The notes under the pieces: generated by a model
Told to the model about the DNA's origin: nothing
The model's database searches: none
The model's input: the letters and a program-made list of their open reading frames with translations, nothing else
Position numbers and translations under genes: made by a program
Part shown: in pieces, positions 7,238-28,806 of the stretch
Layout: the number at the start of each line of letters is the position of its first letter
How positions within the stretch are numbered: the stretch's first letter is position 1
NCBI GenBank assembly: GCA_021740905.1
Contig: JAIOYV010000011.1
Coordinates: 1-64,000, forward strand
Source of the DNA: Bacteroidales bacterium
GTDB lineage: Bacteria; Bacteroidota; Bacteroidia; Bacteroidales; M50B96
DNA length: 64,000 nucleotides
Direction: 5' to 3'

Positions 7238-7544
7238 GCTTTTTTGTTTTGCCTGCGAAATTAGTAAAATATTGGGGGGCGGGGAAGAAAAATGCAGGTA
7301 AGCTATTTTTTAGCCTCCTATTGCATACTTCCTTAGCCACTCAAAAGGGCTAAGGAAGTAGTTCAAATTCACCTCTTCGCCTCCCGCTTTTAGACGGGAC
7401 AAGTTATCGGCACTTGGCCTTGAGAAGGGGAAGCCCGGTTTGCCAAGAGTCGTCCATAAATTTACTTTGACTACACTTTCAATAGATCCTGTCTCCCCTC
7501 CCCGACGGGAGATGTCGACAGACAGAGGGGTGAAAAAAAATGAT
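7238..7544. other. Intergenic region between purD and the T9SS array
   Basis: About 300 bases hold the purD promoter region, the hairpin at 7327-7359 and a GC-rich repeat-like segment at 7490-7532 (CTCCCC...GGGAG palindrome) resembling the one at 56101-56200. I see no gene. Confidence 0.5.
7327..7359. repeat. Hairpin downstream of T9SS paralog 1
   Basis: ACTTCCTTAGCC (7327-7338) and GGCTAAGGAAGT (7348-7359) form a perfect 12-bp stem with a 9-base loop. It begins in the same way as the array hairpins (CATACTT...TTAGC), so it looks like a diverged member of that family, but lies 185 bases past the stop codon. Confidence 0.7.
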
Positions 7545-10500
7545 CTACTCCACCACCATTTTCCAAACCCACTTCATTTCTTTTTGCTGAACCATCAGAA
7601 AATAAATTCCCGGCACAACTTTGCCCAGCCCTATTTCTTCTGATAGCTTTCCTTCTTTGGATGATATTTCTTTCCGATAAATTTCCTGCCCGGTCGAATT
7701 GAAAATGTGCAAATTCAAGTCATCCTTCGATTCCAATCTTCCCGATAGGTAAAAGTTACCCTTGTTTGGATTTGGGTAGATCTGAATTGGAAACTCCCCA
7801 TCCATTTCTTCAATATCAAAAGTGAAGATTTGCAATGTTGATGTATCTGATCCACATTGGTTGGCGGAAACCAAAGTTGCAGTGTACCACATATTTTGGT
7901 TTAAGACGGGGTAATCATGTTCGGGGTTGGCCTCGATTGAAATGGGCGAACCATCGCCAAAATCCCAGAAATAGTAGTAGGCATTCTGCGACTGGTTGAT
8001 GAAATTGACATGGTTGAAGGCCTCGAAGAAATTGAAAGCGGAGCTTACCGGTAGCTGGTTCGTTACCCAAACAGAGTCGACGGTGATGCACCCAAGAGTG
8101 TCGGTAAGGGTTAAAGTGTAGAGACCAACGGAGTCGATTATTGAGTAATCGTTGTTGTAGCCATTGCTCCAGGAGTAATCGTAGAAGGGGTAATTGCCGC
8201 CATCAAGTGACAGGTTTTGGTTGGGGCATTTGGTAGTGTCGGTGGGGAGGATGGAAATTGGTAGTGGATAAAAATTGATATATAATTCCACTGTGTCTTC
8301 AAGTTCGCAATTTGAAGTAGATACGGTAACCTGATAGGTTGAAGTACCGGAAACACTCAACCAATTGTTGCCTGATCCGTTTGACCATTGATAATTAAAT
8401 CCGGGATTGAAATCAACAATAATTGTATCATCCTGGCATATCGTGGTATCAAAGCCTGGAAAAAAAACCAATTCCTCATAGTTCACAGAAATAGTATCGA
8501 ACCAGTTGCAAAAGCTATCGGCCAATGAAATCTGGACAGAATATTCTCCTGGTTCAGTAATATGCAAAGCCGAATCCAAAATCCCTGTAGACCAGTAACC
8601 CAAAATATTCTGTGGCAACTGCAACATGCAACTTTCATTTGGGCAAAGTAAAGTGTCATCTCCTATATCTAAAACAAAATCATAAGCATATTGAACATCT
8701 ATCCCAACTATTTCAATCCCACAATTGGTATAAGACTCACAAGTGAAAATCCCTGTTGTGTCTGCATTGAAAGTTATATTATTGCCTGTTTCTATCAAAT
8801 TACCTGATGGATCAAACCATAAAGGGTTTAATGGGTTGTAACGCAAACAATAGTTTTTGGCATAAAATGGTGTTTCGTTTAAAGAATCTAACACATAAGC
8901 AATAGTCCCATCTGCATTTTGAATCCCGGATACCCCATAGCCATAGCCCCATAAATGACAAACAGGACCATCAATAATATTTACATCAATTAATCCAGAG
9001 CTTTCATAAAGTACTATTTGAAAGTTACCATGCTTTGCAGTACAGGAATAAAGGCTTATATCTAAATAATTTACAACCAATTTCCGCAATGGCGCATTTC
9101 CTGTCACATAATAACTAATAGAACCACTTATTTCCGGGTTCCAATCGCGGTAAAGTGCTAATATTGCATTTCTGGGTCTGGCAGGATCTGGGTTGGGAAG
9201 AGGTTCTGTTGACCAAGGATCTAAGCCGGAATTAGACAAAGGAGAAAAGCTTATCCACCCATTCGAGCCTGCATAAAATTCATTCACGGTGTCTCCAAAA
9301 AAAGCAAAATCGAATCCGATAGGAAATGGTCCCCAGTATTTATCATCCTGCCATTGTGTTGTTACGGGAGTGCCCTCAATCAAGCTATCAGGATTGAAAG
9401 AAGGGAATTGAATATCGTAATACAAACCAGGAACAGAATTCGGATGTGTTAAGAAAGAAGCATTTCCGTTTATCGGATAACCCGGGCAATAAGCTGTACT
9501 GATGGTGGCATAGAGAGTATTCGGAAGGTATTGAATCATGAATGAATCGGTTGCAACACATCCAAAAGTATCAACAATTGCTAGTTGATAGCTATCACTT
9601 GGCAAAAACTGAAAAAGGCTGTCGTGGATAGGAGAAAGAAAAGTGTTGCTATTGATGCTTTGAATATAGATGCTGTCCAAGTATTCCTCTTGTCCCATAC
9701 TAACAATGACCTTTCCTGTTGAATCGCTACAATAGGCATCGGTAACAGATAAAAAGTGAGAAACCGGATATTGATAAGATAAAGTTACCGAATCAATAAT
9801 TTGATCACATAAATCACTTACTGTAAAAGAGTAATAACCGGGTGTAAGACCAGTGATAAAACTCTCTGTACTTCCATTCGACCACAAATAATTAACCGGA
9901 GGGTTTGAAGCAATTATTTCAACCCCGGCAAACCCATTGTTTAGATTCACACAATCATAAATATCCATACTATCAAGGAAAACAGATAGTGGAGGAAATT
10001 CGGGGATTTCAAATTCAAAATTGGCATAGCAAAGATTGGAATCAACAATAGTTAGTGTATATAAACCAGGCAAAAGACTGTCAACATTCTGGGAGCTTTC
10101 GCTATTCGACCAAGAATACGTAAAAGGGGCAGTACCATTTGACACGCTAATATCAATTGCTCCCGGGGTTTGTGAACAGGGATCGGTTTGGATGATATGA
10201 GAAATCTCGACAAATAAACTTGTGTCTTCAACAAAAATAAAACTATCGGCAACAACACAGCCCGAACTATCGGTTACTTCAACCCAATACTCACCAGCTT
10301 GCGTAATTAGCTTTTGGCTATTGGAACTACCATCCCACCAATGATAAGTAAATGGCTGATTACCTCCAATTAGCATTGCTTTGGCCAGACTTGGCAAACA
10401 TCCATTTGTAGAATAATCTATATCAATATGCAAAGGGATTGGATTGACCAAAATACTATCAGTATGTACACATCCTATCGAATCGGAGACAGTAACATGA

Positions 10501-12227
10501 TATTGCCCTGCAAGCATGGAGTCTATAAATAAAACGGACACACCCGTACTCCAAAGAACGGAATAAGGAGGGCTACCGTTTTCAATTTCAAGGTACAAAG
10601 AACATATACTATCCGAACAGTGAATATCTTCAATAATTTGAGAATGAATTGGGTCGGGGCCGGATATCGACAGTGTTGCCGATTCAGTACAATTAAGATT
10701 ACCTGTTACTGTCACACTGTATGTTCCCATAGTTAATCCCCCAATATCTTCGATAGTTTCACCGATATTCCAAAGTATTGAATAAGGTGTAACCCCACCT
10801 GTAATAGCAAGGTCGATGGCATCGTACGAACAAGAGTCGTGCAGGTGAGTAAGCAAAATATCCATTATTGGGGAGATGCTTACCCAGATAGAATCGGTTT
10901 CGAAATACCCATCAACATGGGCTATGGTAACTGAATAGATCCCAGAAATTGGAGTATTTCCAGTGAAACTTATCGAATCGGCGGTACTTCCATTGCTCCA
11001 ATTAAAGGTCAACATTGAATCGGCAGCGTTTGCATAAGTATGTACTGAAATAGGACTACCGTCGCATATCATAAAGGTATCAAGATTAATTCCTGCATTA
11101 AGCTCATATACATCATTAATGGTTATGGTCATTGGCTGGTATCCATGAATACACGAGTCGTAAAACTTTAAAATCAAATCCTCAGAAGGTTCTACCAAAG
11201 TGTCAGCCAAAATAGAAATAGGATAGTTATAGGACATCGCCCCTGAAGGTAGGACAAGGCTGTCTGGAATAATAATATCAATAACCGGTGATGCAATACT
11301 TAAGGTATCAACTTCGACATAAACAATCATCGGAGAACTTAAAAATGTGCTATCGCTTCTTGACAAATGGAACCATGCCGGGTAATCTTCAAAAAATTCT
11401 CCATTTCCACCATACGCTGATTCTACATCAACTATAAAGTTTCTTTTCGAGTTATTTTGATCTTTTACACAAAAAAATAGTCCGCTGTCAATTTCCCTGT
11501 CTACAAGCTCTCCAATAGATGCTGAAACAAAGTATGTTTCATTTGGGACTACAGGTATCGAAATAGTAATAACATCCGTATATCCATCGTATTGGATAGC
11601 CTCATTAGAGGGGGTTGTACCGTTCCCATTGCTGTTGAAATATTGCACATTACTTATGCTATTAACGGTATATGCACCAACAAAAGATGAGGATCCAGGT
11701 AAGAGAGCAACATTTTGTTGGGTATAATTGCCCCCAAAAGGTTTTGGACCCCAAATAAATATTCCACATACATCAGCCAGATAATATCCTTCATATTCTG
11801 GATATTCATCCGAGGCATAAACAAATGATAAGGAATAAACCGTGTCGCATGATACAAATCGAAAATTACAACTTGAAGCATCCCATACAGGACCGGAATA
11901 AAAGTTACTTAAGGTTGTTCCTCCCAACTTAGAATTGTCTGTACTAATCGCCTCCGAATCATTTGGACCAACCGCATCAAAAGCATTGCCTGTAGTTAAC
12001 AATATTCCCCGTTCGAGTGGAAATGTTGTGCCCGATGCATTAAATGTTGCATAGGAATTGATCTTACCAAAAAACTGAAGGTACTCAATGCCAGTATGTT
12101 TGTTGTTAAGAGATTCAACCGCATTCTCATCAAAAACTTTGATGGCAGGATTAACACTTATTGACTGAGAATAAGATAGATTAAATCCAGCAATGAAAAA
12201 GATAATTAGAATGATATAATATTTCAT
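7545..12227 (-). CDS. T9SS-exported SprB-repeat surface protein, paralog 1
   Basis: A 1560-residue secreted protein. I take the ATG at 12227 as start because a good signal peptide (MKYYIILIIFFIAGFNLSYS|QS) follows at once; an upstream in-frame ATG at 12293 would add 22 unlikely residues. Rough order: choice-of-anchor L domain 25-260 (SCDTVYSLSFVYASDEYPEY), Calx-beta-like region to 370, Ig-like module, SprB-like repeats 445-820 comprising one D-A-B-C block, an M module to 905, the GPFPIGFDF domain 910-1145, further Ig-like modules, PKD domain about 1394-1480 (WDFGDGSPI) and a type A sorting domain (IYPNPNKGNFYLSG) ending KMVVE. The T9SS should cross it through the outer membrane and cleave the tail. 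Such proteins act as adhesins or gliding-motility surface proteins; which applies here is unknown. Confidence 0.88.
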   Translation of the reverse strand: MKYYIILIIFFIAGFNLSYSQSISVNPAIKVFDENAVESLNNKHTGIEYLQFFGKINSYATFNASGTTFPLERGILLTTGNAFDAVGPNDSEAISTDNSKLGGTTLSNFYSGPVWDASSCNFRFVSCDTVYSLSFVYASDEYPEYEGYYLADVCGIFIWGPKPFGGNYTQQNVALLPGSSSFVGAYTVNSISNVQYFNSNGNGTTPSNEAIQYDGYTDVITISIPVVPNETYFVSASIGELVDREIDSGLFFCVKDQNNSKRNFIVDVESAYGGNGEFFEDYPAWFHLSRSDSTFLSSPMIVYVEVDTLSIASPVIDIIIPDSLVLPSGAMSYNYPISILADTLVEPSEDLILKFYDSCIHGYQPMTITINDVYELNAGINLDTFMICDGSPISVHTYANAADSMLTFNWSNGSTADSISFTGNTPISGIYSVTIAHVDGYFETDSIWVSISPIMDILLTHLHDSCSYDAIDLAITGGVTPYSILWNIGETIEDIGGLTMGTYSVTVTGNLNCTESATLSISGPDPIHSQIIEDIHCSDSICSLYLEIENGSPPYSVLWSTGVSVLFIDSMLAGQYHVTVSDSIGCVHTDSILVNPIPLHIDIDYSTNGCLPSLAKAMLIGGNQPFTYHWWDGSSNSQKLITQAGEYWVEVTDSSGCVVADSFIFVEDTSLFVEISHIIQTDPCSQTPGAIDISVSNGTAPFTYSWSNSESSQNVDSLLPGLYTLTIVDSNLCYANFEFEIPEFPPLSVFLDSMDIYDCVNLNNGFAGVEIIASNPPVNYLWSNGSTESFITGLTPGYYSFTVSDLCDQIIDSVTLSYQYPVSHFLSVTDAYCSDSTGKVIVSMGQEEYLDSIYIQSINSNTFLSPIHDSLFQFLPSDSYQLAIVDTFGCVATDSFMIQYLPNTLYATISTAYCPGYPINGNASFLTHPNSVPGLYYDIQFPSFNPDSLIEGTPVTTQWQDDKYWGPFPIGFDFAFFGDTVNEFYAGSNGWISFSPLSNSGLDPWSTEPLPNPDPARPRNAILALYRDWNPEISGSISYYVTGNAPLRKLVVNYLDISLYSCTAKHGNFQIVLYESSGLIDVNIIDGPVCHLWGYGYGVSGIQNADGTIAYVLDSLNETPFYAKNYCLRYNPLNPLWFDPSGNLIETGNNITFNADTTGIFTCESYTNCGIEIVGIDVQYAYDFVLDIGDDTLLCPNESCMLQLPQNILGYWSTGILDSALHITEPGEYSVQISLADSFCNWFDTISVNYEELVFFPGFDTTICQDDTIIVDFNPGFNYQWSNGSGNNWLSVSGTSTYQVTVSTSNCELEDTVELYINFYPLPISILPTDTTKCPNQNLSLDGGNYPFYDYSWSNGYNNDYSIIDSVGLYTLTLTDTLGCITVDSVWVTNQLPVSSAFNFFEAFNHVNFINQSQNAYYYFWDFGDGSPISIEANPEHDYPVLNQNMWYTATLVSANQCGSDTSTLQIFTFDIEEMDGEFPIQIYPNPNKGNFYLSGRLESKDDLNLHIFNSTGQEIYRKEISSKEGKLSEEIGLGKVVPGIYFLMVQQKEMKWVWKMVVE

Positions 12228-12297
12228 AATATGTATCATTAGTAAGCTTTGGCCGAGACAATTTTTTTCTGCATTTCGTTGTATCGCATTCAATTTT

Positions 12298-12389: not shown

Positions 12390-12470
12390 TTATTCCATCA
12401 CCATCTTCCATACTCACTTATTTTCATTTTGCTGAATCATCAGAAAATAAATCCCCGGTGTGACTTTGCC
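12390..12470 (-). pseudogene. Orphan T9SS sorting-domain tail
   Basis: The minus strand reads GKVTPGIYFLMIQQNENK, stop, VWKMVME, stop: the last ~26 codons of the array's sorting domain with one internal TGA. No gene is attached upstream; instead the hairpin 12473-12505 touches the GKV codons and the tail of paralog 2 lies beyond it. It appears to be a displaced older tail. Confidence 0.85.
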
Positions 12471-12472
12471 AT

Positions 12473-12505
12473 ACTTACTTAGCATCTCCAAGATGCTTAG
12501 TAAGT
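12473..12505. repeat. Array hairpin, copy A
   Basis: ACTTACTTAGCATCT and AGATGCTTAGTAAGT form a 15-bp stem with one mismatch and a 3-base loop (CCA). It starts 7 bases past the stop codon of paralog 2 on the minus strand. No T-tract follows the stem, so it is not a standard intrinsic terminator. Confidence 0.9.
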
Positions 12506-12512
12506 TTACCTC

Positions 12513-13352
12513 CTACTCCACCACCATCTTCCACACCCACTTATTTTCTTTTTGCTGAACAATCAGAAAATAAATCCCCGGTGCAACTTTACCCAGCCTT
12601 ATTTCTTCTGATAAATTTCCTTCTGTTGATGATATTTCCTTCTGATAAATTTCCTGCCCGGTCGAATTGTAAATGTGCAGGTTCAAGTCATCCTTCGATT
12701 CCAATCTTCCCGATAGGTAAAAGTTACCCTTGTTTGGATTTGGGTAGATCTGAATTGGAAACTCCCCATCCATTTCCTCAATATCAAAAGTGAAGATTTG
12801 CAATGTTGATGTATCTGATCCACATTGGTTGGCGGAAACCAAAGTTGCAGTGTACCACATATTTTGGTTTAAGACGGGGTAATCATGTTCGGGGTTGGCT
12901 TCTGTTGAGATGGGTGATCCATCGCCAAAGTCCCAGAAATAATAGTAGGCATCCTGCGACTGGTTGATGAAATTGACATGGTTGAATGCTTCGAAGAAGT
13001 TGAAGGCAGAGCTTACCTCGGGTTGTTCAGTAACCAAAACGGAGTCGATACTGACACAGCCATTGTCATCTGTTATAGTTACAGTTAGCAAACCCAGCGA
13101 ATCAATAGCTACCGTACTTGAAATATTTCCATTACTCCAAAGATATTCATAAGTGGGTTCATTTCCTCCGTCAAGAATCAAGTTAGAATCGGAACATTTT
13201 GCGGTATCTGAGGGGAGAATGGTAACAGGAAGTGGCAAGAGAACAGGCGACAATTCGAGCGTATCTTCGAGATTGCAATTAGGTGAAGAAACGGTTAAAT
13301 TATAACTTACCGGGCCAGAAATTTCAACCCAATTGTTGGTCGATCCGTTTGA
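12513..13352 (-). pseudogene. Severed 3' part of T9SS paralog 2 (PKD and sorting domain)
   Basis: This segment continues the frame of the 13353-18977 gene without interruption after the in-frame TGA. It encodes the rest of an Ig-like module (SNGSTNNWVEISGP), a SprB-like module, the PKD domain (WDFGDGSPISTEANPEHDY) and an intact sorting domain ending KMVVE. There is no good start codon or ribosome-binding region of its own. Without it, paralog 2 has no T9SS signal. Its last 300 bases are nearly identical to the end of paralog 1. Confidence 0.85.
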
Positions 13353-16300
13353 TCATAGGTAAGAAAAAGCTGTGTCAAGTTCAATCAAAATGTTATCACC
13401 CTCACAAATCATAGTATCCAATCCGGCATAGTAATTCATGTTTTCAAACGAAATCTGGATGGTATCGAACCAGGTACATAATCCATCAGCAATAGAAAAA
13501 TAAGCCGAGTATTCGCCCGGCTGGATTACTTCAACCATATTGCCAGTTGTACCGGTAGACCATTGTCCCGAATAATTTTGGGGCAGTTGCAACAGGCCTG
13601 TATCACCAGGACAAAGAAGTTGATCGGGGCCAAAGAATTGTGGATAGTCATTTAGTATCGGAACACTTATCTCAACACTTTCAAACCCACAAAAGGTTTG
13701 TGCTTCGCAAAAGTAAATTGTGCTCGAATCAACATTAAAAGTAATTGTATCCCCTTGCCCTATTAGATTGCCGAAGGAATTGTACCAAGCAGGTTTTTGT
13801 GGATTGTACCTGACAGAATAATTAAAAACCTGAAAATTGGTATTATTAAAACCGGGTGGGGTGTAACCAATAGTCCCGGAGGCATTTTGAATACCCAATA
13901 CGCCTTTACCCGAATTCCAGTTCGAACATGACGGTCCGGCAATAATATTCACATCGATAATATCCGAGCCTTCAAAAAGGACTACCTGAAAAGTGCCTAC
14001 TATTGAACTACAAACATAAAGGGGAACATCGATAAAATTTATCACGAGTTTCCGGCTGGGTGCAGTGCCGGTTATGTAGTATTTTATTGAAGTGCCCGAG
14101 CCGGGTTGCCAATCGCGATATAAGGCAAATATCGCATTACGTGGCCGGGTTGGATCCTGGTTTGGAATCGAGTGGGTTGCCCAAGGGTCGTAAGTGGTGC
14201 TGGACAAGGGAGAAAAGCTCACCCAACCATTTGAACCAACGTAGAAGTTTGTGACTGAATCACCAAAAAAATTAAAATCGAAACCAATTGGAAATGGCCC
14301 CCAATAATGATCATCCGTCAAGGTTTCTGTAACAAGAGTCCCGCCTGAAAGTGACTCCTGATGAAAAGGAAGGATCTCGGTATTATAATTACTTCCGGGC
14401 ACAGGATATGTTGGCAATTGAAAGACAGTGCTTCCGGTTACCGGATATCCCTGGCAGAAAGCCGGACTAATTGATGGCGTCAATAAACTTGGAACCAATA
14501 GAATTTCAACCGATTCGGTGTATGAACAACCAAACGTGTCTATAACGGTGTAAGTATAGCTGGCTTCGGGGAGTGACTGAAAAATTGATTTTGCATCAGG
14601 AAAATAAATATCCCCAGTTATACCGTTTTGCAAATACATGCTATCTATCATATTCGTTGGATATATTAAAGCTTCAACCTTACCCAAAGAATCGTAGCAA
14701 TAAGAATCACCTACCTCAAGGGAAACTGACAATGAATACTGAATGTCTATGAATACAGAATCGACTTTTTCCATACACAGGTCACCCACTGTTACATAAT
14801 AGATGCCTGAAGAAAGATTCTGAATCATGCTTTCGGTTCCACCGTTCGACCACATATAACTCACTGGTGGGGCCGCCGATAAAGCAAGGACCTGGGCCGA
14901 GCCATTACCAGTTGTCTGACAATTGGTAACCGGGCTTTTATTTATAGAATGTAACAATGTGATTTCGGGAAATGCCGGCACCGAGAAATCATAAACAGAA
15001 TAACAATAATTGGCATCGGTTAAAGTAAGTGAATAATCGCCTGGAAAAAGACTGTCAATGTTTTCAGTGGTTTCCCAGGTCGACCAAATGTAAGTAAAAG
15101 GAGCCATGCCATTTGTTACACTATAATCAGTTGTTCCAGGAGTAGGTGAACAGGGATCGAGAATTAGATTTTCGTTTACTTCAAGAAAAGCGCTTGTGTC
15201 AGCAACCACGGAAAATGTGTCAATTATTGTACAGCCCATAATATCGTGCACTTTCACCCAGTAAAGTCCTGCCTGTCCCAGTATAGTCTGAAAACCATAA
15301 TTTGTAGTTGACCAGTATGCACCATAAGGTGGCGTACCCCCTATCATTTCAACACTTGCCATGCTCGGGACACAACCTGCAGTTGAATAATTTATATTGA
15401 TATCGAAATAGATTGGGTTAAAGCCCATGAAACTGTCAGTCGAAACGCAGCCAAAAGCATCGGTAATTGTGACATAGTAATCGCCTGCAGGAACCGAATC
15501 AAGAATTGCCTCGGTGCTCCCGGTATTCCATAGATAAGTGTATGGAGGAGTGCCGTTGCTTACATTTACGGCTAGCCGTCCAAAGGAATCGTAGCAATGA
15601 AGAAGATTGATGATGTTTGCAGAAATTGGCACGTAAGGTTCAATCACAATAGAAGCAACTGTATCCAAACACATATCACTTATAGTTACATAGTAAATTC
15701 CAGGGCTAAGATTTTCTGCAATACTGTCGGTACTTCCTGTAGACCAAAGAAAACTAAGAGGTGGGGCAATTGTAGATGCTGATACCACTGCGCTTCCATT
15801 GCTCAAGCCCTGGCAATCGGTCACAGGGTTGGTGGTCAAAGTATATGAGATTGATACCCCTGGTACTGGCTGATTGTAGAAGTTGGAAACAGCCCAGCAA
15901 TAATTGCCATCAGTAATCGTAACCCTGTAGTAGCCTTGTACAAGACTATCAATTTCCTGGGTTGTTTCCCCGTTCGACCATAAAAAAGTAAAAGGTGAAA
16001 GCCCATTGGTGATATTAATACCAAGCGTTACAGGAGTAGGAGAACAAGGATGTACTATAATGTTTTGTGTAAATTGAAGAGATATGCTTGGGTCGGCAAC
16101 AATAGTAAAAGTGTCAGTTACATTACAACCCAAAGCATCTTGCACTTTTATCCAGTATGTTCCGGGTAAAATATGTATTTCAGGCGTATTGTAATTATTA
16201 CTCCAAAGATAGGTGTACGGAGGGCTTCCTCCACTAACTTCAACATTAGCATAGCTCCACATACAACCTGCGGTAGAATAATTTAGTGCGTCAATCGTTA

Positions 16301-18977
16301 AGGGTTCGAGATCCGGAACGAACAAGCTATCGGATGCCATACAACCACCGGAATCGGTAACTATAACACTGTAATTCCCGCTACCAATCGAATCGAGAAT
16401 TGCTTCTGTGCTTCCATTGTTCCAGAGATAAGAATAAGGCGATATTCCATTGTTCACTTCCACAAACAAACTTCCTATTGAATCGGTGCAGTCGATGTCA
16501 GGCACAATGGATAAACTGATGGGGATCGGAGGGTTAATTATTGCAATGTTGATAAAGCTGTTGCACAAATCACTCACGGTAAAGTAGTAAATACCAGCCA
16601 CAAGATTTTGTATGATACTGGTTGTATCACCTGTCGACCATACATAACTAACCGGCCCATTTGACGACTGAATTAGTATTTCAGCCTGGCCATTATCTAA
16701 AGTCAGGCAATTGGTCACATGGGTTGGAATAGAACTATATGTCAATTCAGGAAAAGTTGGAACATTGAAACCACTCGTCCAATAGCAATAATTAGCATCA
16801 GTTAGACTCACGCTATAAAAGCCGGGTGATAAGCCATCTATATCTTCAGAAGTTTCATAATTCGACCAGGTATACGAGATGGGGCTTAAGCCATTGTTTA
16901 TTGTAAGGTCGATTGAACCTTGATTCGGAAGACAACCCGAATTTATTTCTGATTCAAGTTGTAGAAAAGTGCTGGAGTCGGCAACAATAGTAAAGCTATC
17001 AACATAAGTACAACCAAGAGAATCCTCCACTTGCACCGTATATGTGCCTTCTTGCGAAATAACGATTTCAGGACCAAAATTGCCAGACGACCATGTAAAC
17101 AAATAAGGGGCTACGCCAGCTACGGGCTGTGCACTTGCCAGGCTTGGAAGGCATCCGGCGGTGGAATAACTCAACTCCAGGCCTAAGGGTATTGGGTTAA
17201 AGGCAATGATGCTGTCAATTTTAGTGCATCCCAGCGAGTCGGTGATTGTAACATAATAATCACCCGATGGGATAGAATCAAGCTCAGCTAAAGTATCGCC
17301 AGTGTTCCATAAATAGGAATATGGTGGAGTGCCATTATTTGTAGTTAAAAAAATGGTACCAAGAGAATCAGCACAAAATATTTCAGATGAAAAACTAGTT
17401 GTCATTGGATCAGTTGAATTTATGGTCTTCCATTTAATTGTTTCACATCCGAAGCCATCAGTAACAGTAAGTTGATATGCTCCAGAGCTTAATCCATAAA
17501 TATCCTCGGTAGTTTCCCCTGTGTTCCATAAATAGGAAAACGGTCCTGTCCCCCCCGAAATCTGACTATCAATGCCATCGAATCCACATGAATCGGATAA
17601 TTGAACAGCATTAATTGTAGGAGAATACAAGACTTCAACAAATACCGAATCGACAATTGAATCGACATTGTTGTACGTAGCTGTAACATAGTAATAGGAT
17701 GTAGAGAAGATACTGGCATTACCTCCAAAACCCGAGTAGGTCAATCCATTGCTCCATAAAAAACTTACAAAAGAACCTGTAGCATTGACTTCACAATTTA
17801 GAAAGATAGCATCACTTCCGCAAGCCGTAATCGTATCCTGTACAATCTCGGCAGTAAATACATATTCGTCTAATATTTGAGCTTTGATCCTTTTTTTGCT
17901 ATGCTCACAGATACTCCAAAAACTAATATCAAACCATTCGTTGATTTCTTGAATTGAATCGGCATACGTAATTAGAGGAATATCAATCCAACCAATCCCA
18001 GTTGGTATAACAATGCTATCAGGTAGAGTAAAATCTACACCCATAACCGCATTAGTTGGATTACTATTTTGCTCAACATAGATTGTATATGGAGAATTAT
18101 TAAAATTACTCGATTCAATTCGATGAAAATGAATATGTGTGGGGTACCCTTCATAGATTTCACCTATTGATTCCCCATAACCTCCACCCCAGCTTCCATA
18201 AGGAGATAAAAGTATGGCAGTGAAATCATTTTGATTGGCTGTTTCCTGATTTACCCAAAATAATATACCGCTATCGGATATAGAGTCGCCTACATCAGCT
18301 ATCGCAACATCAATAGTATATACTTCGCCCGGGACTATTGGGATATCAGCATTGATAACTGCTGTTAAATTATCATACCCTAAAACCAAAAAATTATTGA
18401 GAAAGTTCGCATTTGTAGTACTATTTATAGTTTCAATATTAACGGGTAAATTGGTCCCGGGAACCAAGGCAAAGTTGTGATTCTGATAGTTGCCACCCAA
18501 AGGATTTGGCCCACTAACAAATATTCCACAGACATCAATAAATGAACTACCTATTAATTCAGGATAGCCCTCTGAACCAAATACAAATGATAGGGAGTAA
18601 ATTGTATCACAAGAAATAATATCGAACGATAGCATGGAGGCATCCGTTGTGGCCTGATTGCTTATTGAATTTAATACTGGACTACCCAATCCTGTATTAT
18701 CAAAACCAACATTTCCCGAATTCGGCCAGCTTGCATTTATAGCTTTTCCAGTAGTTAGAATAATACCTGCACCATAAGATACGCCAAGACCTGGCATTTC
18801 ATAAGTGCCATAAGAAACTGAATCGCCTGTAAATTGTATGTTTTGCACACATGACATAGAAGTACGAAGATAGTTTTCTATTTGAACCGTATCGGGGTTC
18901 GGGGTTAAAACAAACTGAGCATCAGCGAATATTGTAGCTAGTAAAAAAATTATTGTAAGGAAAGACTTTGTTTTCAT
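13353..18977 (-). CDS. T9SS SprB-repeat surface protein, paralog 2, cut short by an in-frame TGA
   Basis: The 1874-residue open part of a gene that would make 2154 residues, the largest of the array. It has a signal peptide (MKTKSFLTIIFLLATIFADAQ), a choice-of-anchor L domain (about 30-275), a Calx-beta-like region, then SprB repeats at about 445-1420 containing three consecutive D-A-B-C blocks, one M module, the GPFPIGFDF domain (about 1505-1745) and Ig-like modules. The frame stops at TGA 13353-13355, where paralog 6 has Gln-Trp (FSYQW); the codons here read CTA TGA. The product would be exported to the periplasm but would lack the tail needed for outer-membrane passage. A very recent mutation, a sequencing error or readthrough are alternatives. 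Confidence 0.8.
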   Translation of the reverse strand: MKTKSFLTIIFLLATIFADAQFVLTPNPDTVQIENYLRTSMSCVQNIQFTGDSVSYGTYEMPGLGVSYGAGIILTTGKAINASWPNSGNVGFDNTGLGSPVLNSISNQATTDASMLSFDIISCDTIYSLSFVFGSEGYPELIGSSFIDVCGIFVSGPNPLGGNYQNHNFALVPGTNLPVNIETINSTTNANFLNNFLVLGYDNLTAVINADIPIVPGEVYTIDVAIADVGDSISDSGILFWVNQETANQNDFTAILLSPYGSWGGGYGESIGEIYEGYPTHIHFHRIESSNFNNSPYTIYVEQNSNPTNAVMGVDFTLPDSIVIPTGIGWIDIPLITYADSIQEINEWFDISFWSICEHSKKRIKAQILDEYVFTAEIVQDTITACGSDAIFLNCEVNATGSFVSFLWSNGLTYSGFGGNASIFSTSYYYVTATYNNVDSIVDSVFVEVLYSPTINAVQLSDSCGFDGIDSQISGGTGPFSYLWNTGETTEDIYGLSSGAYQLTVTDGFGCETIKWKTINSTDPMTTSFSSEIFCADSLGTIFLTTNNGTPPYSYLWNTGDTLAELDSIPSGDYYVTITDSLGCTKIDSIIAFNPIPLGLELSYSTAGCLPSLASAQPVAGVAPYLFTWSSGNFGPEIVISQEGTYTVQVEDSLGCTYVDSFTIVADSSTFLQLESEINSGCLPNQGSIDLTINNGLSPISYTWSNYETSEDIDGLSPGFYSVSLTDANYCYWTSGFNVPTFPELTYSSIPTHVTNCLTLDNGQAEILIQSSNGPVSYVWSTGDTTSIIQNLVAGIYYFTVSDLCNSFINIAIINPPIPISLSIVPDIDCTDSIGSLFVEVNNGISPYSYLWNNGSTEAILDSIGSGNYSVIVTDSGGCMASDSLFVPDLEPLTIDALNYSTAGCMWSYANVEVSGGSPPYTYLWSNNYNTPEIHILPGTYWIKVQDALGCNVTDTFTIVADPSISLQFTQNIIVHPCSPTPVTLGINITNGLSPFTFLWSNGETTQEIDSLVQGYYRVTITDGNYCWAVSNFYNQPVPGVSISYTLTTNPVTDCQGLSNGSAVVSASTIAPPLSFLWSTGSTDSIAENLSPGIYYVTISDMCLDTVASIVIEPYVPISANIINLLHCYDSFGRLAVNVSNGTPPYTYLWNTGSTEAILDSVPAGDYYVTITDAFGCVSTDSFMGFNPIYFDININYSTAGCVPSMASVEMIGGTPPYGAYWSTTNYGFQTILGQAGLYWVKVHDIMGCTIIDTFSVVADTSAFLEVNENLILDPCSPTPGTTDYSVTNGMAPFTYIWSTWETTENIDSLFPGDYSLTLTDANYCYSVYDFSVPAFPEITLLHSINKSPVTNCQTTGNGSAQVLALSAAPPVSYMWSNGGTESMIQNLSSGIYYVTVGDLCMEKVDSVFIDIQYSLSVSLEVGDSYCYDSLGKVEALIYPTNMIDSMYLQNGITGDIYFPDAKSIFQSLPEASYTYTVIDTFGCSYTESVEILLVPSLLTPSISPAFCQGYPVTGSTVFQLPTYPVPGSNYNTEILPFHQESLSGGTLVTETLTDDHYWGPFPIGFDFNFFGDSVTNFYVGSNGWVSFSPLSSTTYDPWATHSIPNQDPTRPRNAIFALYRDWQPGSGTSIKYYITGTAPSRKLVINFIDVPLYVCSSIVGTFQVVLFEGSDIIDVNIIAGPSCSNWNSGKGVLGIQNASGTIGYTPPGFNNTNFQVFNYSVRYNPQKPAWYNSFGNLIGQGDTITFNVDSSTIYFCEAQTFCGFESVEISVPILNDYPQFFGPDQLLCPGDTGLLQLPQNYSGQWSTGTTGNMVEVIQPGEYSAYFSIADGLCTWFDTIQISFENMNYYAGLDTMICEGDNILIELDTAFSYL
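14715..17400 (-). repeat. Three tandem ~890-bp D-A-B-C blocks in paralog 2
   Basis: Four SprB-type repeats recur in the same order three times, starting near 17,390, 16,500 and 15,600. D has C-x-DS-x-G...NGTPPYxYLWNTG, A has YSTAGC-x-PS...VVAD, B has PC-x-x-TPG...TDANYCY, and C has VTxC...NNGSA...SPGIYYxTxSD. Each unit of about 75 residues carries conserved Cys positions near its start and end. The blocks differ in DNA, so the expansion is not recent. Confidence 0.8.
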
Positions 18978-19010
18978 GGTAGTCGATTATGTTTAATTTC
19001 TATTCAGATT

Positions 19011-19195
19011 TTTTCTTCGTGTTCCTTGTGATTTTCCCTTTGTTGCGCATCAATAACATCTGTCCTGTCCGATTCTAATAAGTTTTCAATTTCGGTTGTG
19101 GTCAACAACGAAGGAGAACTTATTTGAATGGATTGCGCATACCCGGTTATACATAAAAAAAACAGAATGAGGAAAGAGAATAATAGAGTCTTCAT
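19011..19195 (-). pseudogene. N-terminal relic of another T9SS array gene
   Basis: From the ATG at 19195 the frame encodes a signal peptide (MKTLLFSFLILFFLCITGYAQS) and about 28 residues (SSPSLLTTTEIENLL...TDVIDAQ) that line up with the mature N-terminus of paralog 3 (YPSLVSDTMLVKEIL...TEVFNIQ). It then runs into the CTTTGCG-type intergenic repeat and ends. It is the remains of a lost paralog that lay between paralogs 3 and 2, although a short exported peptide could still be made. Confidence 0.65.
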
Positions 19196-19203
19196 AGCTT
19201 TTG

Positions 19204-19231
19204 CAAATTTACAATTGGTATTAGACACAAA
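19204..19231 (-). promoter_or_regulatory. Candidate promoter of the N-terminal relic
   Basis: TAAATTTG (19204-19211 on the minus strand) fits the -7 box TAnnTTTG and TTTG (19228-19231) the -33 box; the spacing of 16 is slightly short. It lies 9 bases before the relic's ATG and could now transcribe paralog 2. Confidence 0.4.
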
Positions 19232-19335
19232 AGACTTTAATATAATTTAAAGGTTGCCTAAAATTAGAGGCTTTGAATTATAAAATTCAAAATCAACAGA
19301 CAATACTTGACCCGAAATAGACGGGAATCAATTTA

Positions 19336-19415
19336 TCACTCCACCACCATCTTCCAAACCCACTTATTTTCTTATTGCTGAAGCATCAGAAAATACAAAC
19401 CGGTTCTACTTTGCC
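19336..19415 (-). pseudogene. Second orphan T9SS sorting-domain tail
   Basis: The minus strand reads GKVEP, a frameshift, then LYFLMLQQ, stop, ENKWVWKMVVE, stop: a decayed copy of the terminal ~26 codons of the array's sorting domain. As at 12390-12470, it begins at the GKV codons directly beside the hairpin that follows the neighbouring gene. Confidence 0.85.
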
Positions 19416-19417
19416 AT

Positions 19418-19450
19418 ACTTACTTAGCATCTCCAAGATGCTTAGTAAGT
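19418..19450. repeat. Array hairpin, copy B
   Basis: Same 33-base hairpin as copy A (15-bp stem with one mismatch, CCA loop), 7 bases past the stop codon of paralog 3. Copies A and B are identical for about 70 bases across the junction, from the orphan tail through the hairpin into the gene's last codons. Confidence 0.9.
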
Positions 19451-19457
19451 TTACCTC

Positions 19458-22400
19458 CTACTCCACCACCATCTTCCAAACCCATTTATTTTCTTTTTGC
19501 TGAACCATCAGAAAATAGATTCCAGAAGCAACTTGCCCCATCTCTATTTCTTCTGATAATTTTCCTTCTGTTGATGATATTTCCTTCTTATAAATTTCCT
19601 GCCCGGTCGAATTGTAAATGTGCAGGATCAATTCATCCTTCGATTCCAAACTTCCCGCTAGGAAAAAATCACCCTTATTAGGATTGGGATAAATCTGGAT
19701 CGGAGATTCCCCATCCATTTCCTCAATATCAAAAGTAAAAATTTGCATCATTGAAGTATCCGAGCCGCACTGGTTGGCTGAAACCAAGGTGGCCGTGTAC
19801 CACATATTTTGATTTAAAACCGGATAATCATGTTCGGGGTTTGATTCGTTTGAAATGGGTGAACCATCGCCAAAGTCCCAGAAATAGTAGTAGGCATTCT
19901 GCGATTGGTTGATGAATTGGACATGGTTGAAGGCCTCGAAGAAGTTGAAGGCGGAAGAAACATCGGCTTGATACGTTATCAGAACTGAGTCGGTAATAGA
20001 ACATCCGTAAGCATCGCTTTTATCCACAATGAAAAGACCTGCTGTATCGGTTGCCAGAATTGCATTAGCCGAACCATTATTCCAGAGGTAGGCGTAGGAA
20101 GTACCCCCAGCATCAATTTCGAAGGTATCGTTCAAACACATTGTTGTGTCGGAAGGAAGTATACCCAAAGGCAATGGGCGCATCGCAACTTCAAAGGAAT
20201 CGTGCCATTCACAATTGAGCGTTGAGACAGTAACAAAGTAATTGCCCGATGCTGAGATCGGAAAGATCGTATCGCTGCTTCCATTGTCCCAGAGATAGGT
20301 ATAATCCTGGCTTGTATGAAAGAGGATGGTGTCGCCTTCGCAAATATTTGGATCATAGTTGTACTCGTTTGTGTTTTCTTCGTATGCTATACTTGCTTCG
20401 GTAGACCAAATACAGATGCCTGCAGCTACACTTACGGAATAAATGCCGGCTCCGGGGATTTGGATGCTCTGCGTACTTGCCCCATTGTCCCAATGGTAAT
20501 AATCCCATCCCGGAAGGCTGATGATAAAATCCTGGCCTTCGCAAACTGCATTTGGGATTATTTCGGTTGTTAATGCCGGGTTGTTAAAAATAATCACAAA
20601 TGAGTCGGTTTCGAGGCCGCAATAACCATTGTACTCGGTGTAATAGATTCCGGGCACTTTAGCCGGAAAACTAACTTCTTCGCCTATTCCAACCTGAGTG
20701 CCCGATGGATCGTACCAGTGGATATGAGAAGGAGTAAATCGCCAACTCTCGTTATAAGCTTCCCAGGGTGTTTCGTTTCTTCCGGGGACAACATAAGCAA
20801 TTGTCCCTTCATCGTTTTGGATGCCACAAACACCCTCCCCACCCCAACCCAGTGCGTTAATGCAAGTTGGTACACTCGTAAGGTTAATATCCGCATAGTG
20901 GCCATTTTCATAAACGACAACCTGAAAATCACCAAAAAGAGTGGTACAATTATACAAGGCTATATCTTTCATGGTGACTACCAGTTTCCGGTTGGGAGAT
21001 ACACCAATGGTTTCGTAAAAAATCCCTCCACCCGGTAAGAATTCGGAAGGCATCCAATCACGAAAAGCCGGCATAATGGCAGCCTTTGGATACTTTGGAT
21101 TGGAAGCGGGAATTTCAGTGATATCCCATGTGTCGCCCGAACCAAAGGGGGGGACAAAACAAACCCAGCCATTGCTTCCTACATAAAACTCGGAGTATGT
21201 GTGATTAAAAAATGTAAAGTCGAATCCTATGGGCAACGGCCCGCTTCTTTGTTCATCAAGTAAAGCCGACAACCTGATTGCATTCGATGAAACAGGGATT
21301 GTATCGTATGCAATTTGTGCTACTTCGTAAGGTGATCCCTCATAACCAGCATGAAGCACTACTTCGTCTCCGGGACAATCTACAGAAATCATATTGGTGT
21401 CAAGCTGAATAAAATCGTCTATCAATTCATTAATAATTTCTGCCGAATCGGTGCATTGTAACCACCCATAAGTTACATGTAACATATAGTTTCCAACAGT
21501 CAACGAATCATAATAGGAAAGGAACTGCCCGGTAGAAGAATTTACCACATGAAATTGAAATGGTTGTGTACCATTAGGGTATATTCTAATAAATCCAAGC
21601 CCATCATTGCAATAGGAATTTCCTTTTTCAATTATATAGTAATTAGCTAAACTATATTCAATTTCGAGGCTGTCTTCGATTATGTTGTTGCAAGCATCAG
21701 ATGCGGTATAATAATAAATTCCCGGAGCGAGTGAGTCAATGCTTGCCGTTGTATCACCTGTCGACCATTGAAAAGAGTAGGGAAGTGTGCCTCCACCAGG
21801 AGTAAGAAAAATAGCTCCGTTTATGTAGGTTGAACAATTGGTAACAGGGACTATCAATTCATCAACAAAAAATTGGGAAATCTCAAGGATTTCAAAACTA
21901 TCGGTTTGAAAACAATAATTTTCGTCAATCACTGTCACTGAATAATTTCCTGGTGATGCCATAATCAAATCCTCGGTAGTTGCCCCGTTCGACCAGTTAA
22001 AAGTATATGGAGATGCCCCGGTTACAACAGTGATGTCGATTGTTCCGGGGGTTATGGAACATGGGTAAATTGTAATATTGTCGGCTATTTGCAGAAAGGT
22101 ACTCGAATCGGCAACCACCGTAAAAGTGTCAACCAGGGTACATCCTGCTCCATCCTGAACCGATACCCAATAATCACCAGCTTGTGAAAGTATTGTTTGG
22201 CTGCCATAATCCATGTTCGACCAATATACCCCATAAGGTGGAGTACCACCGTTTACATCTGCAATGGCAAAGCTCGGGATACATCCAGCAATTGAATAAT
22301 CTACTTTCATGCTTAAAGGAACAGGATTGAAACCAATCAAACTGTCTTCAATAATACAGCCTAAATTATCAATAACTGTAACATAATAATCACCTGCCAG

Positions 22401-23903
22401 GACGGAATCAATAAATTGAGTTGTAGCACTGGTATTCCAAAAATAGGAATACTGAGGATGTGCGTTTTGAACAAAGAACCCAATGGAGCCAAGTGAATCA
22501 TTACAAAAAGCTTCAGCATAAAAATCCATAATAAATGAGTCATTTGAAATTAATACATGTACAGAATCCACCATAAAATAGCCACCAACATGGCTTATAG
22601 TAACATAATACATATTATTAATTTCTGAATCTCCCTGAAAGAACAAGCTGTCCGCCGTACTTCCATCACTCCAGAGATAGCTTACCATAGAGTCGGGTGC
22701 ATAAGTATAGGTATTTATAACAGAGGGGGCACCAATACAGTTTTCGAAGGTGGGTTGTAAAATTCCTACCGTAAAAACTAGGGAATCCAAAATATTAGAT
22801 TGAAGTATTTGTCCCCCATGACAATATGCAGTATCGAAAACTATCGAGAGCCATTCATCCGTTTCAAGTATAGAATCTGAAATAACATCGAATGGATAAT
22901 CAAAACTCATTACACCCGCTGGAATGGTAATGCTATCGGGTAAAACTGAATAATCGGGTCCAGGTGTGGCACTCATTGAATTATTGCCTACTACAAGGTA
23001 GGTCGTTAAGCTTTGATTGAAATACAGAGAATCTGTTTTTTCGAAATGCAAGCTGGCAGGAAAACCTTCGACCAACTGATTGGGATTAGAATAGGTAGAT
23101 ACAAGAGAGACAGTAAATTCACTTTGAACTTGGGTATTAAGGTCGCCAGATACAAAAAGGCCACTGTCATAACTACCATTGCCTACATTGGCAATGGCAA
23201 TCTTTACATGGTAAGTTTCCCCCGGTACAATATCTACCTGACAGTTGATAGGAACTGTATAACCATCATATTGAAGGGCATCATCAGTAGTATAAAATGG
23301 CGAAAAATTATTAATAAAATAATTTGCGAAAAAAATGTGATTAATAGTATTATTACTTATCGGAAAAAGAGTGCCTGGTATAAGCGCAAAATTATAATTG
23401 TAATAAGGTGGGTTAATAGCCGGGTTGGGCCCGGAAATAAACACGGCATGGATATCGTGCATGGTGCCAATCAATTCAAGATAATTCTCGGACCCATAAA
23501 CAAGATTTAAATGGAAGGTATTGTTACATGAAATAAAATCGAACTCTAAAACTGACGCATCAGTTGTTGGGTTAGTAAGCAATGCGTTAAGATCAGGATC
23601 ACTTGGCCCTGTATTATCATAGCCGGTACTTAAACTATTGTTTGGCCCGGCTGCATTTGTGGCTTTACCTGTTGTCAAAAGTAGGCCACGGGGCATATCA
23701 AAATCGGAATACCCTTTTGTAAAAACACCATACGAAATCGGATCGCCCGAAAACTGAATATTAAACACTTCAGTGTAAGGATTGGCCAGAATTTCTTTTA
23801 CCAACATGGTATCGGACACCAAGGATGGATATACATTTATTGGTTGAGCAAGGGCAAAAAAACTAAGGCTCAACGAAAATAGAAGTAAGGTTATAACTTT
23901 CAT
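19458..23903 (-). CDS. T9SS-exported SprB-repeat surface protein, paralog 3
   Basis: A 1481-residue protein with signal peptide MKVITLLLFSLSLSFFALAQ, choice-of-anchor L domain about 25-270 (CNNTFHLNLVYGSENYLE), Calx-beta-like region (GVMSFDYPFDV) to about 375, an Ig-like module, one SprB D-A-B-C block at about 460-748, an M module, the GPLPIGFDFTFF domain at about 835-1075, Ig-like modules, PKD domain about 1315-1400 and a type A sorting domain (IYPNPNKGDFFLAG) ending KMVVE. It lies 60 bases after paralog 4 and is likely in the same transcript. Expected at the outer surface after T9SS export; adhesion or gliding function is inferred only from domain type. Confidence 0.9.
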   Translation of the reverse strand: MKVITLLLFSLSLSFFALAQPINVYPSLVSDTMLVKEILANPYTEVFNIQFSGDPISYGVFTKGYSDFDMPRGLLLTTGKATNAAGPNNSLSTGYDNTGPSDPDLNALLTNPTTDASVLEFDFISCNNTFHLNLVYGSENYLELIGTMHDIHAVFISGPNPAINPPYYNYNFALIPGTLFPISNNTINHIFFANYFINNFSPFYTTDDALQYDGYTVPINCQVDIVPGETYHVKIAIANVGNGSYDSGLFVSGDLNTQVQSEFTVSLVSTYSNPNQLVEGFPASLHFEKTDSLYFNQSLTTYLVVGNNSMSATPGPDYSVLPDSITIPAGVMSFDYPFDVISDSILETDEWLSIVFDTAYCHGGQILQSNILDSLVFTVGILQPTFENCIGAPSVINTYTYAPDSMVSYLWSDGSTADSLFFQGDSEINNMYYVTISHVGGYFMVDSVHVLISNDSFIMDFYAEAFCNDSLGSIGFFVQNAHPQYSYFWNTSATTQFIDSVLAGDYYVTVIDNLGCIIEDSLIGFNPVPLSMKVDYSIAGCIPSFAIADVNGGTPPYGVYWSNMDYGSQTILSQAGDYWVSVQDGAGCTLVDTFTVVADSSTFLQIADNITIYPCSITPGTIDITVVTGASPYTFNWSNGATTEDLIMASPGNYSVTVIDENYCFQTDSFEILEISQFFVDELIVPVTNCSTYINGAIFLTPGGGTLPYSFQWSTGDTTASIDSLAPGIYYYTASDACNNIIEDSLEIEYSLANYYIIEKGNSYCNDGLGFIRIYPNGTQPFQFHVVNSSTGQFLSYYDSLTVGNYMLHVTYGWLQCTDSAEIINELIDDFIQLDTNMISVDCPGDEVVLHAGYEGSPYEVAQIAYDTIPVSSNAIRLSALLDEQRSGPLPIGFDFTFFNHTYSEFYVGSNGWVCFVPPFGSGDTWDITEIPASNPKYPKAAIMPAFRDWMPSEFLPGGGIFYETIGVSPNRKLVVTMKDIALYNCTTLFGDFQVVVYENGHYADINLTSVPTCINALGWGGEGVCGIQNDEGTIAYVVPGRNETPWEAYNESWRFTPSHIHWYDPSGTQVGIGEEVSFPAKVPGIYYTEYNGYCGLETDSFVIIFNNPALTTEIIPNAVCEGQDFIISLPGWDYYHWDNGASTQSIQIPGAGIYSVSVAAGICIWSTEASIAYEENTNEYNYDPNICEGDTILFHTSQDYTYLWDNGSSDTIFPISASGNYFVTVSTLNCEWHDSFEVAMRPLPLGILPSDTTMCLNDTFEIDAGGTSYAYLWNNGSANAILATDTAGLFIVDKSDAYGCSITDSVLITYQADVSSAFNFFEAFNHVQFINQSQNAYYYFWDFGDGSPISNESNPEHDYPVLNQNMWYTATLVSANQCGSDTSMMQIFTFDIEEMDGESPIQIYPNPNKGDFFLAGSLESKDELILHIYNSTGQEIYKKEISSTEGKLSEEIEMGQVASGIYFLMVQQKENKWVWKMVVE

Positions 23904-23963: not shown

Positions 23964-26900
23964 TTACTCAACCACCATCTTCCAAACCCAGCTTTTTTCT
24001 TTTTGCTGAATCTTGAGAAAATAAATGCCGGGGGCTACTTTGCCCATTTTTATCTCTTCTGAAATGCTTCTTTCTAATGACGATATTTTTTTATTGAAAG
24101 TTGGCTCACCTATCGAATTAAAAATCTGAATACTCAAATCATCCTTCGATTCTAAACTTCCCAAAAGGAAAAATTTACCCTTGTTGGGATTGGGGAAAAT
24201 CTGGATCAGAGATTCTCCATCCATTTCTTCAATATCAAAGGTAAAGATTTGCATTGATGATGTATCCGAGCCACACTGATTGGCTGAAACCAAAGTGGCA
24301 GTGTACCACATATTTTGGTTTAAGACGGGGTAATCATGTTCGGGGTTGGCTTCTGTTGAGATGGGTGACCCATCGCCAAAGTCCCAGGAAAACCAATAGG
24401 CATTCTGCGATTGATTTTGGAATTGGACATGGTTATTGGTTTCAAAAAATTGGAAAGATGAATTTACCAGGAGCTGGTTCGTAACCCATACAGAGTCGAT
24501 AGTAACACAACCAAACGTATCAATAAGGGTTAAAGTGTACAAACCTACCGAGTCGATAATCGTGTAGTCGTTGTTGTAACCATTGCTCCAATAGTAATCG
24601 TAGAAGGGGTAATTCCCGCCATCGAGGGCCAGGTTTTGGCCGGGGCATTTGGTAGTGTCGGATGGAAGGATGCCAACAGGTAAAGGAAGCAAGGTCAGGT
24701 TTATTTCAACAGTGTCGGCCACGGTACACGTTGCCGATGAAACGGTTACGTAAAAGAAACCGGAACTACTGGTTAAAAAAACATTGGAGGTATTGCCATT
24801 TTCCCATTCATAAGAAAACATACTATCACAAACTATCCAGGCAGTATCTCCCTGGCAAATTTCAGAATCAAAAAATAGATCAAATTCCATATTCTCGAAA
24901 GAAACCGCAATGCTATCCTGCAACATGCAGAATTCGGTGGAAACAGTGACAAAATAATCCCCGGCCTGGTCAATTGAAATCGGATTTGTTGTTTCGCCTG
25001 TACTCCACTGGTAGGCATATCCCAATGGCATTTGCAAATAACCTGACCCATAAGGGCAAATTTCAATTTCGGGCCCTAAGTCGAGAGTTTGAATTACCTC
25101 ATCTAAGTAAAGATGGAAATTAATTTCTTCATTGCCATAGGGTGATTGAAGGTGCCCTGTGTAAGTTCCTCCAACTAATGGGACAAAAGAAACTTGATTT
25201 CCAGAACCAATGAAGTTTGAGTCAGGATCGTACCAATTTAAATGTATTGGACTATACCTATAGGATGAATTACCAGTCATGAAATAGGTATTATTGTATG
25301 CCTGATCGTACAAATAGGCTATTGTGCCGGAATCATTCTGAATTCCAATTACTCCATTTCCATTGTTCCAATAAGGATAGGTATCAACTAATAAATGGTT
25401 CATGAAAATGTAATTTGTGGATTCCTGTAAAACGATTTGGAAGGAGCTTGAAAAAGAACTGATGATACCATGTAATGGAATCTGTATAAAGCTAATCACA
25501 AGTTTACGATTGGGAGCTACTCCTGTTGTATAATATTTCACATTTCCCCCCTGGCTCAAATCCCAATCGCGATAGGCGGCCATAATACAACATCTGGGAT
25601 GTGTCGGATCCGGGTTTGGAATTGCCTGCGTCTCCCAGGGGTCGTAAGATGGATCACTTAAAGGTTGAAAACTAATCCATCCGTTTGAACCCACATAAAA
25701 TTCATTATACGAATCACCAAAAAAATCAAAATCAAATCCAAGTGGGAAAGGGCCAAAATAGGCATTGTCAACATGAATCCCGGGGACTGAAACCCCCAGA
25801 GTAGTGTCCTCATAAGTTAAAGGGAGGAGAGCAACATCATAGTAAAAATCGTTCCCAAAGTCGGGGTTGGTCAATAAGTTTGTAAAAAGCAAAACCGAAT
25901 CACCCGGGCAATTTACCAGGATCATGGTGTCGGTTGCCGGGACAATATTCGACTGATAACCGATATTTACATAAGATGTATCGATACATTGAAAGCTATC
26001 CATTATCGAAAGTAAATAAGATCCGGGGCTTAAATTCCAGTTTGCATTTTGAAACCCCGAATTAAGAATTTGCAAGGATGATAGGTTTTGAACCTGGGCC
26101 GTACCGAATTGACTTGGAGGATTAAAATTTACTTCTATGCTTCCTAAGGGATCGGCATAACTTGCATCTGTAACTACCACATTGTAATCGACAGCATACT
26201 CATATTCCAGTTGAATGGAATCAACTAAAACATGGTTACAGGCATCCTGAATGGTGAGATAATACATGCCGGGCTGGAGGCTATCTGCCGTAGCTGTGGT
26301 ATCGCCGTTCGACCACAAAAACGAATAGGGGGCCGTTCCGCCGATAACTGAACAAAGAGCCGAGCCATTGTCAAGGTTATGGCAGTCGGTTACATTCAGT
26401 GGAATTATTTCGGCGCTTAACGCTCCCGGGCCTGGCAGGTTGAAATCCCGTACCGAAAAACAGGAATAAACATCAGTTACCGTAAGGAAATACTCTCCAT
26501 AAGGAAGGTCATACACATCTTCATTTGTCGATCCGTTCGACCAGTTAAAAGTGTATGGGGGCAAACCCGAAAGAACATAAATTTCAATATTTACAGGCAG
26601 GTTGTCGCAATAATTATAAAAAATACTGTCGATGACATCCACATAAAAAGTAGAATCGATTGCGATATTGAACTGTTCGTAAAGCTCGCAACCATAAGAA
26701 TCAACCACAGAAACCGAATAAGGGCCGGGGGTTGGTATCGTAATTTGATTGGAAGTTTCTCCTGTTGACCAAGAAATCTGGACAGGATGGTTTGCACTAT
26801 CAAAAGTAAGATCTGCATGACCCGGGACACAAGAAATATCCTGATGAAGTAAAGATGCCGAAAATGGAAGAGGATTAAAGTTGATGATACTATCGGAAAC

Positions 26901-28773: not shown

Positions 28774-28806
28774 ACTTACTAAGCATCTCCAAGATGCTTA
28801 GTAAGT
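28774..28806. repeat. Array hairpin, copy C (perfect)
   Basis: ACTTACTAAGCATCT and AGATGCTTAGTAAGT form a perfect 15-bp stem with a CCA loop, 7 bases past the stop codon of paralog 5. Unlike copies A and B, no orphan tail lies beyond it. Confidence 0.92.

Follow-up and report, generated by a model that had tools for sequence, protein, structure and literature searches.

Six large genes stand in tandem on the minus strand of a 64,000-nt stretch of DNA (the window) from a Bacteroidales draft genome (6.5 Mb, 160 contigs). Behind two of them, the gene end is followed by a hairpin and then by a decayed second copy of the same kind of end. How can a gene come to be trailed by a dead tail twice within one array, and does such an arrangement betray a system for exchange of secretion signals? 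We suggest, with moderate confidence and from sequence comparison, that the two junctions are a scar left by two successive recombination steps among paralogous, tandemly arrayed genes for T9SS-secreted proteins. We take this scar as a trace of gene reshuffling, not as a tail-switching system.

The gene array and its two junctions

The array consists of g7 (32730..38603), g6 (28814..32644), g5 (23964..28667), g4 (19458..23903), g2 (12513..18977) and g1 (7545..12293), and T9SS type A sorting domain (PF18962/TIGR04183) forms the end of all six genes. The five full-length proteins, those of g1 and g4-g7, match PF18962 with E values from 1.6e-11 to 3.3e-14; g4 and g6 also exceed the TIGR04183 cut-off, and a choice-of-anchor L domain was matched at their N-termini. 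Besides the sorting domain, most of the five proteins match SprB or PKD repeats (g7, for example, combines SprB/PKD repeats with the type A domain). The sixth gene, g2, had been taken for intact in an earlier note on this DNA. Instead, we found an in-frame TGA at 13353-13355 (minus strand), about 280 codons before the end of the gene, in a YLW motif of the repeat domain where g4 has tryptophan. The tail of g2 is homologous to the sorting domain but lies beyond this TGA, and is thus cut off from the rest of the gene. No gene of at least 100 aa was found between the array genes. A seventh tail of the array type is present on another contig (L070, G000:C80:12723-13319), with an in-frame TAG within its sorting domain; its downstream DNA resembles that behind g1, which suggests a duplication that would have taken in the 3´ flank of g1.

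Behind both g4, whose sorting domain is intact, and g2, the minus strand reads in the following order: WKMVVE-TAG, a spacer of 7 nt (GAGGTAA), a hairpin of 33 nt, the two bases AT and finally the dead tail copy. The palindrome at these two loci is ACTTACTAAGCATCT-TGG-AGATGCTAAGTAAGT. After it and the AT comes GGCAAAGT..., coding for GKV(T/E)PG... and continuing through to the end of the sorting domain. Each of these orphans comprises the last 26 codons of the domain, beginning at GKV. Orphan 1 (12390..12470, minus strand), behind g2, carries one in-frame TGA and then TAA, while orphan 2 (19336..19415, minus strand), behind g4, has a broken frame and an in-frame stop; both can be read as real old tails (GKVTPGIYFLMIQQ... 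and GKVEPGLYFLMLQQ...). The longest identity between the two junctions is 71 bp: minus-strand positions 12463..12533 on the g2 side are the same as 19408..19478 on the g4 side, and the stretch covers gene end, stop, spacer, hairpin and orphan start. The earlier note had described this order at both loci, with identity of about 70 bases, and in this respect its description is borne out.

A profile built from the six array tails and run across the genome matches both orphans (genome-wide E 2.6e-8 and 6.5e-7), and among its 57 matches the orphans are the only ones confined to the last 27-28 profile columns (172/173-199). As 0 matches to the hairpin are expected in shuffled sequence, the geometry of the junctions is not a product of chance. 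Compared with intact array tails, the orphans show 10-18 differences over about 83 positions; they are close homologues (80-88% identical) of the pieces that replaced them. We also considered them as functional extensions and rejected this: the frame stays open past the stop of g2 or g4 into the hairpin, yet each orphan is interrupted, which leaves both as untranslatable remnants.

The hairpin and its distribution

Four array genes have the hairpin behind them, always on the minus strand. The copy behind g6 (28774..28806), 7 nt past the stop, is perfect. The one behind g4 (19418..19450) has one A-A mismatch in its stem and is identical to that behind g2 (12473..12505), whereas the copy behind g1 (7327..7359), about 185 nt behind the gene, is degenerate. 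The stem variant common to g2 and g4 is missing from the g6 copy; because this stem position varies across the hairpin family, the common variant is only supporting evidence for kinship of the two junctions. Neither g6 nor g1 is followed by an orphan, and g5 and g7 have neither hairpin nor orphan behind them. A faint orphan suspected behind the g6 hairpin was dismissed, its local alignment being no better than that of shuffles (p 0.31).

In the 6.5-Mb genome, the 33-nt hairpin with its 15-bp stem gives 57 strand-wise matches, which correspond to about 29 sites. The stem is kept, with a compensatory change at one variable pair, 5-29. Only two other genomes among 393 sampled of the order contain the hairpin; further ones were reached by a pattern scan, so the distribution is patchy. 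Its other bearers include Salinivirgaceae, Saccharicrinis and Carboxylicivirga. With plain open reading frames taken as gene calls, hairpins are rarer between divergent genes than random intergenic positions are (6/66 vs 75/269, p=0.001), and the median distance to the nearest upstream stop is 44 nt. Seven hairpins of the genome itself (around 1500 in L034, L030, L032, L037, L012, L044 and L031) have about 60 nt of 3´ flank in common (TANCGAGG ... CCAATATGGGTAAGTTAATTCGACAGTC). Since several copies thus extend beyond the palindrome, the hairpin probably constitutes the core part of a larger element, itself dispersed.

Its nature can be narrowed down to some extent. A known RNA family is not indicated, as no Rfam match was obtained at E<=1, and an intrinsic terminator is not either, for the hairpin has no T-run and was missed by a terminator scan. 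REP elements, palindromes of 20-40 bp, lie mostly downstream of codirectional or convergent genes and in duplicated clusters (PMC3733652). The hairpin resembles them in being a 33-nt palindrome that is dispersed, located mostly past genes and found in duplicated clusters. Unlike them, it has a low copy number (about 29) and no GTAG/CGTC tag: no conserved tetranucleotide, GTAG or CGTC foot was detected beside 81 hairpins. Nor does it lie beside the Y1_Tnp (RAYT-like) genes of the genome within flanks of up to 1.5 kb; the palindromes that do adjoin them there have other sequences, and mobilisation by RAYT was dismissed as an explanation. A different palindrome, CACCACAATTTATTGTGGTG, stands in several copies on the flanks of one such gene (L073). 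The hairpin is a dispersed REP-like element of 3´ ends, which perhaps acts on the mRNA 3´ end.

History of the two junctions

The noncoding junction shows 0/50 differences between the two loci, against 15/72 in the adjoining orphan bodies (Fisher p=3.5e-4), and the orphan bodies have no derived bases in common. Junction and orphans therefore differ in history. The DNA downstream of orphan 1 is unrelated to that downstream of orphan 2, and spacer plus hairpin, looked for behind either orphan, are absent at both, which excludes simple tandem copying in the window. Further, the last 510 bp of g2 form a mosaic, resembling first g1, then g4 and then g6 (permutation p 0.0035, 0.001 and 0.003). Such mosaic tails show recombination between the array genes independently of the junction. 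A single ancestral origin of the junction is very likely. Each orphan resembles what was once the native end at its locus, with the shared unit of tail, hairpin and junction in front of it, so in at least one case copied sequence has pushed an end downstream.

We propose that in step 1, which is inferred and would have happened only once, the end of an array gene with a REP-like hairpin past its stop, as g6 has now, became fused, through short homology at or near the ATG behind that hairpin, with a different sorting-domain end at its GKV region. The product would be a tail, stop, hairpin and dead tail in succession. A sorting domain of the type ...TGGGCAAAGT could have been the partner, and the microhomology fits. 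The flanks of the g6 and g1 hairpins both start with ATGCA and agree at 17/25 positions (p<1e-4), whereas the flank at g2 and g4 is cut after ATG and runs on as GCAAAGT, as would fit a microhomology join. The homology from which this step is inferred amounts to at most about 3 bp. Step 2, which is the supported one, would be homologous recombination (gene conversion or unequal crossover) between array genes, by which gene end, hairpin and first orphan bases were copied onto a second array gene. Since every intact array tail has homology to an orphan, the exchange on the right could be resolved inside the recipient's own old tail, leaving a second orphan followed by native downstream DNA. The orphans would since have been inert and decaying, and the hairpin would have been carried along by chance.

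The count of 0/50 could stem in part from constraint on the hairpin or from later conversion of an older duplicated junction, and the kinship of the orphans, only about 80 bp long, is weakly resolved. Collapsed or chimeric assembly of similar genes may also play a part in a draft of 160 contigs. A search for an orthologous array in other genomes gave one distant match only (66%, in G002, a genome of the same family), and none was found in GTDB contigs; with no close relative having the array, no ancestral locus without the junction was seen.

The same comparisons bear on the rival explanations. One junction event might have been followed by plain duplication of tail, hairpin and orphan, with neutral divergence since. 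The genome has only two copies, both in one array, with identical junctions and a common hairpin variant, which speaks for this course. But the orphans differ at 15/72 positions next to a noncoding junction without differences, they have no derived bases in common, and the duplication would need to end exactly at the orphan end. We find this course rather unlikely; it would be tenable only with a later re-homogenisation of the junction alone. The earlier note had set one event plus duplication against its own view, and of that alternative the single origin stands as very likely, while simple segmental duplication does not fit the unequal divergence. The note itself favoured a cassette of tail plus hairpin. 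A dedicated cassette that inserts behind gene ends or replaces them, comparable to tip displacement in Rhs/CDI loci, would account for the succession of new tail, hairpin and displaced old tail at two loci. Against it, the hairpin is no private part of a cassette: it is a dispersed repeat of about 29 copies. Many unrelated genes have it behind them with no tail attached, and at g6 and g1 no orphan follows it. Further, no tail-hairpin unit exists in the genome besides those of g2 and g4, and the replaced tail is almost the same in kind as its replacement, so that no switch took place. What remains of that proposal is displacement as such, an end moved downstream by copied sequence, in line with the 0/50 and 15/72 counts and the unrelated downstream DNA; the dedicated cassette we consider highly improbable.

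The parallel with CDI/Rhs is weak too, since the displaced piece is a homologue without upstream domain. In Rhs loci the alternative tips are unrelated to one another, come with fragments of the core and have been proposed to reach the locus on circles (Jackson et al. 2009, PMC2935791). As in displacement of Rhs C-termini, the old end is stranded downstream. Unlike there, the orphan is the same sorting domain as the attached end, not a non-homologous alternative; it begins at GKV inside the domain, directly after hairpin and AT, with no core fragment; and no immunity gene accompanies it among genes of at least 100 aa. Among ordinary processes, gene conversion in an array of paralogues comes closest. 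P. gingivalis surface proteins with T9SS C-terminal domains are described as evolving in concert through gene conversion or unequal crossover (PMC5266723), and there, as here, mosaic ends are swapped between neighbouring paralogues of secreted surface proteins. In contrast to that case, a noncoding junction travelled with the exchanged sequence here, and a dead second end stayed behind. What is peculiar about the two-step scar is its self-copying: flanked on either side by tail homology, the junction can spread to a neighbouring gene and take the place of that gene's own end. Copying between near-identical surface-protein genes can in this way strand the recipient's own secretion tail, and hairpin plus orphan tail need not imply a cassette or a switching system.

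Possible hairpin-linked duplications in other genomes

The hairpin might, alternatively, promote local tandem duplication of adjoining DNA, so that a copy of the gene tail lands behind it as a REP-like by-product unrelated to secretion. Among gene ends in DNA fetched across genomes, those that have a hairpin no more than 150 nt away are followed by a tail copy in 3/69 cases, those lacking one in 1/657 (p=0.003; p=0.024 with the two window loci taken as one), a comparison that the window itself prompted; when the window is left out, 1/67 against 1/657 is not significant. In the window, moreover, the second tail copy has no hairpin behind it and simple tandem duplication does not fit; tandem duplication could have made the first junction only if a second hairpin was later lost. 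For the window we judge this explanation unlikely, and hairpin-linked tail duplication is only a lead. A more active role, in which hairpins of this family bring about duplication or displacement of adjoining gene 3´ ends in Bacteroidota and scars recur on unrelated genes, seems to us decidedly unlikely.

In Salinivirgaceae GH45 a hairpin of the same family lies 45 nt behind a gene related to the 23S rRNA methyltransferase RlmI (its matches fall well below the RlmI cut-off). Tail and stop are followed there (L087:2018-3610) by 45 nt, a hairpin, a decayed copy of the 26 final codons and a second, decayed hairpin, in a 255-bp tandem duplication. As this RlmI-like housekeeping gene shows the same order, the succession of tail, hairpin and dead tail is probably not special to secretion. 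Should the case turn out to be general, such hairpins would serve as natural markers of duplications linked to palindromes. Two further hairpins fit the same explanation: in Saccharicrinis UBA6048 one lies within a 168-bp tandem duplication (L090:689-1013), and another is enclosed in a direct duplication of about 73 bp (L136:1469-1600).
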